Origin: Desulfovibrio aminophilus DSM 12254
GTDB lineage: Bacteria; Desulfobacterota; Desulfovibrionia; Desulfovibrionales; Desulfovibrionaceae
Length of the DNA: 64,000 nucleotides
Assembly: GCF_000422565.1 (NCBI RefSeq)
Contig: NZ_AUMA01000006.1
Location: 186,001-250,000 of the forward strand
Direction of reading: 5' to 3'
Part shown: positions 31,039 through 33,005 of the stretch, in pieces
Layout: the number at the start of each line of letters is the position of its first letter
Position numbering within the stretch: position 1 is the stretch's first letter
Program-made: the position numbers and the translations under genes
Notes under the pieces: generated by a model
Databases searched by the model: none
Seen by the model: the letters and a program-made list of their open reading frames with translations, nothing else
What the model was told of the DNA's origin: nothing

Positions 31039-31314
31039 CTATTCGGCCTTTTCCTGCCCTGCTTCCAGGCTCTTGATGAATTTGTCCCGGCATTCATAGG
31101 AGCAGAAGACGTGCACGGCCTCGCCCTGGCGCACACGGATGTCTCCGTCTTTGCGGACGTAGGCGCCGCATACGGGATCCTTGACCATCTCGCCGGAGGC
31201 GGCCAGATTCTCTTCCTGTTTCTTGTCGCGGACCTGCTTCTGCTTGCGGTCGCCGGTGAAGAGCTTCCAGACCACGAACGCGGCCACGGCGAAGATGAGG
31301 AACTTGATGAGCAT
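31039..31314 (-). CDS. Membrane-anchored YHS/TRASH-type metal-binding protein
   Basis: This 91-residue protein has an N-terminal membrane helix (LIKFLIFAVAAFVVWKLF), a basic linker (GDRKQKQVRDKKQEE) and a small YHS-like domain: MVKDPVCGAYVRKDGD, then HVFCSYECRDKF. The three Cys fit a Zn or Cu site of the TRASH/YHS type, facing the cytosol if the N-terminus is outside. The ATG at 31314 has a ribosome site (AAAGGAGT). It lies 25 nt downstream of folK and is probably the last gene of the dapL-folK unit. Confidence 0.8.
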   Translation of the reverse strand: MLIKFLIFAVAAFVVWKLFTGDRKQKQVRDKKQEENLAASGEMVKDPVCGAYVRKDGDIRVRQGEAVHVFCSYECRDKFIKSLEAGQEKAE

Positions 31315-31338: not shown

Positions 31339-31857
31339 CTAGTCTTGCCAGATACGGTCGCCGTCCAGGCGGTGGTTCAGGGCGCCCAGGGCCGTTTTCA
31401 CGGCCACTCCGCCGGGCAGGACGAGGTCCGGGGCGATCTCGCGCAACGGGACGAGCATGAAGGCCCGCGTGAGCAGACGCGGGTGCGGCACGGTCAGGAA
31501 GCCCGTGTCCGCCGTCAGGTCGCCGAACAGCAGCAGGTCCAGGTCGATGACCCGGGGGCCGCCGGGAGTCTCCGCGGAGCGGTCCCGGCCCATCTGGGCC
31601 TCGATGGCCAGGAGTGTGGACAGCAGCCCTTCCGGAGCCCAAATCTCCGGATCCACGGCCAGCTCCACCACCTGGTTGGCGAACCAGGGCTGATCCTTGA
31701 GGCCCTGGGGTTCGGTCCAGTAGATAGCCGACTGTTTTTTGAGTTGGATGTCGGCGCCGTAGTTTTCCAGCCTCGCCAGGGCCTCGTTCAGGTTTTCCTC
31801 GGGTTTGCCGAGGTTCGAGCCGAGCCCCAGGTAGGTGGTTACAAGCTGGATATCCGT
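31339..31857 (-). CDS. folK: 2-amino-4-hydroxy-6-hydroxymethyldihydropteridine pyrophosphokinase
   Basis: FolK transfers pyrophosphate from ATP to the pterin in folate synthesis. The signature YLGLGSNLGKPEENLNEAL, KQSAIYWTEPQG, FANQVVEL and GPRVIDLDLLLFGD (catalytic Asp pair) are all intact, giving ~170 residues, the normal length. No ATG, GTG or TTG occurs in frame between 32052 and this N-terminus. A good AAGGAGG site (31871-31865) lies inside the end of dapL, 7 nt before an ACG (31857) and 4 nt before GTC. I set the start at ACG as the best-spaced near-cognate codon, but it is uncertain. The gene overlaps dapL by about 19 nt. Confidence 0.85.
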   Translation of the reverse strand, partial: TDIQLVTTYLGLGSNLGKPEENLNEALARLENYGADIQLKKQSAIYWTEPQGLKDQPWFANQVVELAVDPEIWAPEGLLSTLLAIEAQMGRDRSAETPGGPRVIDLDLLLFGDLTADTGFLTVPHPRLLTRAFMLVPLREIAPDLVLPGGVAVKTALGALNHRLDGDRIWQD

Positions 31858-33005
31858 GACGCAGCCTCCTTGAGTCTGTCGGTGTTCACGGTCAGCGAGA
31901 TGCGGAAGTACCCTTCTCCGGGCGTACCGAAGCCGTTGCCCGGGGTCAGGACCACGCCGGTCTGACGCAACACCTTGGTGACGAAGTCCTGGGAGGTCTG
32001 CCCCTGCGGCACCTTGGCCCAGATGTAGAGCGAGGCCTTGGGGACGCGGCATGAGATGCCGATGTCGGCAAGGCATTTGAGCATCACGTCCCGGCGTTCC
32101 TTGTAGACTTCCCGGAATTTGGCGGCGTAAGGTTCCCCGTTTTGCAGAGCGGCGATGCCCGCCTCCTGGATGGCCTGGAACAGGCCGGAATCCACGTTCT
32201 CCTTGACCTTGCCCAAGCCCGCCACGAGGCTCGGGTTGCCCACGGCCATGCCGATGCGCCAGCCGGTCATGTTGTAGGTCTTGGACAGGGAGTGGAATTC
32301 AATGGCCACGTCCTTGGCTCCAGGGATTTCCAGGATCGACAGCGGCTTGTCCGACGGATCGAAGTAGATTTCCGTGTAGGCCGCGTCATGGACCACGATC
32401 ACGTTGTATTCGCGGGCGATGGCCACCAGTTTCTCGTAGAAGCTGCGGGGCGCGGAGGCGGCCGTGGGGTTGTTCGGGTAGTTGACGTAGATGAGCTTGG
32501 CCCGCTTCCACTCTTCCTCGGACACGGAATCCAGGTCCGGCAGGAAGTCGTTCTCGTCGGTCAGGGGCAGATACTTGACCTCGCCGCCCACGAAGGCGGT
32601 GGTCACGGGATAGACCGGGTAGTTCGGGGTGGCGATGAGCGCCAGATCGCCAGGATCGATGAAGGCCAGGGGGAAGTGGGCGATGCCTTCCTTGGAGCCG
32701 ATGAGGGTCATGACTTCGGTGGCCGGGTCCAGGTCCACGCCGAAGCGGGTCTTGTACCAGTCGGCCACGGCCTGGCGGAAGGCCAGCATGCCGATGTAGG
32801 ACGGGTACTGATGATGCTCGGGCTTGCGGGCGGCGGCGCAGAGCGCCTCCACGATGAACTCCGGGGTCGGCATGTCGGGGTCGCCGATGCCCAGGCTGAT
32901 GATGTCCTTGCCCTGGGCGCGGACCTCCTCCTTGGCCTTGTCGATGGCCGCGAAGAGATAGGGAGGAAGGGCCTGAAGCCGCTTGGCCAGCGGAAACGTG
33001 CGCAT
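31839..33005 (-). CDS. dapL: LL-diaminopimelate aminotransferase
   Basis: This 388-residue class I aminotransferase shows SLGIGDPDMPTPEFIVEAL, SYIGMLAFRQAVADWY, the YVNYPNNPTAA segment, VVHDAAYTEIYFDP and the PLP-lysine in FHSLSKTYNMTGWRIG. It resembles DapL, which converts tetrahydrodipicolinate directly to LL-DAP in one step for lysine and peptidoglycan, as in other Desulfovibrio. An aspartate/alanine aminotransferase cannot be fully excluded. With lysA at 42 kb, it covers two steps of lysine synthesis. It is followed by the overlapping folK and divergent from xerD. Confidence 0.85.
   Translation of the reverse strand: MRTFPLAKRLQALPPYLFAAIDKAKEEVRAQGKDIISLGIGDPDMPTPEFIVEALCAAARKPEHHQYPSYIGMLAFRQAVADWYKTRFGVDLDPATEVMTLIGSKEGIAHFPLAFIDPGDLALIATPNYPVYPVTTAFVGGEVKYLPLTDENDFLPDLDSVSEEEWKRAKLIYVNYPNNPTAASAPRSFYEKLVAIAREYNVIVVHDAAYTEIYFDPSDKPLSILEIPGAKDVAIEFHSLSKTYNMTGWRIGMAVGNPSLVAGLGKVKENVDSGLFQAIQEAGIAALQNGEPYAAKFREVYKERRDVMLKCLADIGISCRVPKASLYIWAKVPQGQTSQDFVTKVLRQTGVVLTPGNGFGTPGEGYFRISLTVNTDRLKEAASRISSL

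Follow-up and report, generated by a model that had tools for sequence, protein, structure and literature searches.

A conserved near-cognate codon is the probable start of folK within the end of dapL

The dapL-folK locus of Desulfovibrio aminophilus DSM 12254 raises the question of where translation of folK can begin when its reading frame offers no ATG, GTG or TTG ahead of the conserved N-terminus. The window, the whole stretch of DNA that was analysed, is 64,000 nucleotides long and comes from a genome of 3.42 Mb that is 99.98% complete; both genes lie on its minus strand. Comparison with relatives indicates that folK probably initiates at a near-cognate codon inside the end of dapL, most commonly and ancestrally AUC and in this genome the GUC at 31860-31858, and that this initiation may be coupled to translation of dapL.

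The folK frame and its missing start codon

The upstream gene, dapL (31839-33005), encodes LL-diaminopimelate aminotransferase (TIGR03540, 614.6 bits against a cut-off of 593) and ends in a TAA stop at 31841-31839. The folK gene occupies 31339-31860, which gives a product of 173 residues if the start is the GTC at 31860, and ends in a TAG stop at 31341-31339. Its product carries the HPPK domain by both PF01288 (E 5e-33, 114.3 bits, cut-off 25.7) and TIGR01498 (115.4 bits, cut-off 54.1). The two genes overlap by 22 nt, from the GTC at 31860 to the last base of dapL at 31839, with folK in the -1 frame of dapL; a downstream start ahead of the upstream stop is typical of a translationally coupled overlapping pair. 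No Rfam RNA element was found near the dapL-folK junction. A small ORF of 91 aa (31039-31314, minus strand) lies 24 nt after folK and is probably in the same operon; it has a hydrophobic N-terminus and the motifs DPVCGAYV and CSYECRDKF.

The original prediction that the folK frame contains no ATG, GTG or TTG from 32052 to the conserved YLGLGSN was confirmed by a base-by-base reading of the minus strand. After those at 32076 and 32052, both well inside dapL, the first cognate codon to appear is a GTG at 31671, about 64 codons into FolK and beyond the conserved motif. Neither end of this gap provides a start: the relatives have in-frame stops just before the Shine-Dalgarno (SD) sequence, which rejects the upstream ATG codons at 32076 and 32052, and initiation at the downstream GTG would lose the whole N-terminal third of FolK. 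Within the gap the order on the minus strand is AAGGAGG (31871-31865), CTGC, GTC (31860-31858), ACG (31857-31855), GAT, ATC, CAG, CTT and GTA (31842-31840), the last of these overlapping the dapL stop. The SD sequence AAGGAGG, which lies within dapL, is 4 nt from the GTC and 7 nt from the ACG, both spacings being exactly as predicted.

Conservation of the start region among relatives

Searches recovered folK from 56 of 59 relatives and, across the family, from 257 of 288 genomes. A total of 134 folK start regions were compared, with dapL located in each, and in 102 of these the end of dapL lies at most 45 nt upstream of the conserved folK GSN; these 102 loci form the overlap set. The comparison of start regions that had been proposed as a check found the same lack of a cognate start: in 86 of the 102 overlaps ATG, GTG and TTG are missing from codons 5-16 before GSN, and in 62 the whole stretch from an in-frame stop to GSN is free of them. 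By a hand count the 86 loci come from some 19 genera of the family plus one genus belonging to another family, and the sequence GTC ACG GAT ATC is identical in the congeners L002 and L003, so that the state is common to three congeneric genomes. Conservation on this scale, together with that among the congeners, excludes chance or error. Among the 102 loci an in-frame stop is found at codon 17 before GSN in 16 genomes and at codons 18-22 in many more, and at codons 1-16 in none, which places the beginning of translation inside that 16-codon stretch. It typically reads GGA GGC GGT ATC ACG GAT ATC CAA ACT GTA, on to YVxLGSN, and is free of cognate codons in most species. At two further loci, L134 and L118, folK lies more than 100 nt from dapL behind a long, proline-rich and GC-rich leader, and the roughly 35 codons preceding GSN contain no ATG, GTG or TTG.

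When 100 dapL genes were aligned by codon, folK lay in the -1 frame in every one, and the folK codon at the position of 31860 is ATC in 73, GTC in 12 and GTT in 11, that is, RTY in 96, with GGAGG 4 nt before it in 93. The four exceptions, GGC (L011), GGA (L113 and L115) and TTC (L117), each have a canonical start, GTG or ATG, no more than 8 codons from GSN, an association with a Fisher p of 2.6e-4, uncorrected for kinship. The codon that follows is less constant, being ACG in 53 of the 100 and CAG, TCG, CCG, GCG or CAA in most of the other 47. Since the RTY codon begins with the wobble base of a dapL Val codon, the conservation of that base can be set against the codon usage of dapL itself. 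GTA serves as this Val codon in 72 of 90 genomes, whereas the codon usage of the individual dapL genes predicts 10.6, and pyrimidines are found there in 0%; at 22 other Val columns GTA reaches at most 38% and pyrimidines make up at least 28%. Of 165 fourfold columns this one has the highest share both of purine and of A, and on the dapL tree it has undergone a single purine/pyrimidine change, against a median of 16 and the fewest of 134 fourfold columns. Similarly, the dapL Glu codon that writes the SD sequence is GAG in 96%, whereas GAG does not exceed 54% at any other Glu column. The near-cognate codon and the SD sequence are thus both conserved by selection, and in 62 of the 102 loci no cognate start lies between the in-frame stop and the conserved N-terminus, as is expected of a natural near-cognate start. 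As read from these alignments, the RTY codon and the SD sequence mark a selected initiation region, and the start of folK is very probably near-cognate rather than the product of a sequencing error. The ancestral start would have been AUC, replaced by GUC about five times, once in the common ancestor of this genus and its sister.

The overlapping protein explains the form of this codon. The DapL residues across the folK start are Val-Ser (with Ser as TCN), Val-Leu (with Leu as TTA) or Ala-Ser, so the folK codon is RTC or RTT; an ATG or GTG at the same site is precluded, since a third-base G would put Cys or Trp into DapL. Some lineages have taken other routes, namely a GTG formed with a TGA stop of dapL (a GTGA overlap), an ATG behind the TAA, or a gap between the genes followed by a normal ATG. 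That most lineages keep the weak start suggests that it is sufficient, or wanted. In a subgroup of one genus (L044, L045, L046, L048, L051, L053, L054, L056 and L066) the dapL stop is now TGA and provides folK with a GTG in a GTGA overlap, and the upstream ATC is kept.

Alternative starts and the proposed mechanism

Some evidence tells against initiation at the RTY codon: its 4-nt spacing from the SD sequence is short, and the ACG at 7 nt is better placed and follows in all 23 cases in which the codon is GTC or GTT. It is possible, therefore, that the GTC and GTT lineages, this genome included, start folK at the ACG (31857-31855) and that lineages without ACG start at ATC. This main rival is unlikely, though not negligible. 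In its favour, the ACG was lost several times among the ATC sequences while being kept in all of the GTC and GTT sequences, and the A at its first base is the second-highest among fourfold columns. Nevertheless, its absence from 47 of the 100 relatives means that ACG is not the start of the family as a whole, and because ATC makes up an estimated 76% or so of the ATC/GTC/GTT branch length, the near-confinement of the losses to ATC lineages is not significant. Furthermore, in sigR the mature N-terminus begins with Thr right after a GTC, yet the proven start is that GTC (PMC5472188). The ACG placed first in the original prediction is thus not the conserved codon; that is its neighbour, described there as one base from GTG and found as ATC, GTC or GTT.

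Initiation at the GTA (31842-31840) that overlaps the dapL TAA, by termination-reinitiation as in ATGA and GTGA overlaps, would put the start at the position of the Met of canonical FolK; in 12 relatives, where the dapL stop is TGA, this codon is GTG, and its first base is a purine in about 83%. The codon itself is GTA, ATA, CTA, TTA or GTG among the relatives, with no near-cognate conservation: CTA or TTA stands there in 16 of the 102 loci, and since CTG is already the commonest Leu codon, GTA needs no selection. Given also that the SD sequence is too distant and that the conservation of both it and the RTY codon would be left without explanation, a GTA start is improbable. A programmed -1 frameshift late in dapL, yielding a DapL-FolK fusion, would account for the invariant -1 frame of the aligned overlaps and for an SD-like stimulator upstream; it is very improbable, as an X XXY YYZ heptamer of the dnaX type occurs in the last 13 dapL codons of none of the 100 sequences, and folding around the start gave z-scores near 0, with no unusually stable RNA in the three sequences tried. 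The remaining explanation, that the sequence or assembly is wrong or that folK is a pseudogene in decay, is scarcely credible. The original prediction had left near-cognate initiation and assembly error side by side, the GTC being one base from GTG; of these, the near-cognate start is strongly supported and the error is rejected, given that the same state occurs in three congeners and most of the family and that a GTG at 31860-31858 would truncate dapL with a TGA. As for decay, the folK frame is intact, the HPPK conservation is full and the gene is the sole copy in the genome.

For initiation at the RTY codon, a mechanism can be proposed in which AAGGAGG, encoded by conserved Lys/Glu-Glu-Ala codons of dapL, would hold ribosomes at the folK start, ribosomes just finishing dapL would re-use the site, the dapL stop beginning 16 nt past the GTC codon, and fMet-tRNA would start on the mismatched AUC or GUC. 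Coupling to dapL is plausible from the 22-nt overlap, and we infer an output that would be low and sensitive to IF3. One in vitro study reports that under IF3 the first two codon positions must form Watson-Crick pairs and that mismatches are best borne at the third base (PMC10158994), which AUC fits better than GUC or ACG.

Relation to known non-canonical starts

The non-canonical start of infC, the gene for IF3, is well known and served as a positive control: within the same order ATA, ATC or ATT was found at a constant place after a GAGG-rich sequence in nearly all relatives with a readable N-terminal motif, and its recovery indicates that the comparative reading works. In the genome studied here, ATA is the most likely start of infC (L215; G000 contig C4, a little upstream of 222582), in the context GGAGG GATGCGCT ATA GCT TTT. 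E. coli infC starts at ATT and Streptomyces infC at ATC (PMC5472188). The proposed folK start resembles that of infC (AUU/AUC/AUA) in being near-cognate and conserved over long times, both occurring in the same genomes, but infC is autoregulated by its own product and no such loop is evident for FolK.

The closest parallel to the codon of this genome is Streptomyces sigR, for which Edman degradation, stop scanning and IF3 effects proved a GTC start, presented in that study as the first to be documented (PMC5472188). With sigR, folK would share a GTC start that has a strong SD sequence close upstream in an overlapping operon and is easily misannotated, and the sigR GTC is conserved across its genus and repressed by IF3 (PMC5472188). 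In contrast to sigR, a sigma factor gene with a GTC start reported only from Streptomyces, folK encodes a folate enzyme and its putative start is mostly AUC, across about 19 genera. Borrelia burgdorferi pncA/bbe22 likewise encodes a metabolic enzyme with a non-canonical start, AUU, that is misannotated in databases, although it uses another codon and the abstract of that study describes no overlap constraint (PMC13398362). Like ATGA and TGATG termination-reinitiation pairs, folK would start at or before the upstream stop, making coupling likely, but the dapL-folK overlap is longer, at 22 nt, and the start is not cognate (PMC6728339). No earlier report of a near-cognate folK start was found in the open-licence literature, so one may have been missed.

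To our knowledge, very few genes with starts other than ATG, GTG or TTG have been documented, and gene finders cannot place such starts; the N-termini of folK across the family are probably misannotated. A single-copy metabolic gene appears to have retained a near-cognate start through about 86 species, because the overlapping coding sequence of dapL leaves little room for a normal one, and GUC and GUU starts in several genera would widen the precedent set by sigR. A more speculative and distinctly doubtful possibility is that the whole family uses AUC, GUC and GUU as natural starts of a folate gene it cannot do without, and that these starts have been kept as a throttle sensitive to IF3. Because the formyl group of the initiator tRNA comes from folate, near-cognate initiation of folK could on this view sense the state of the initiation machinery.
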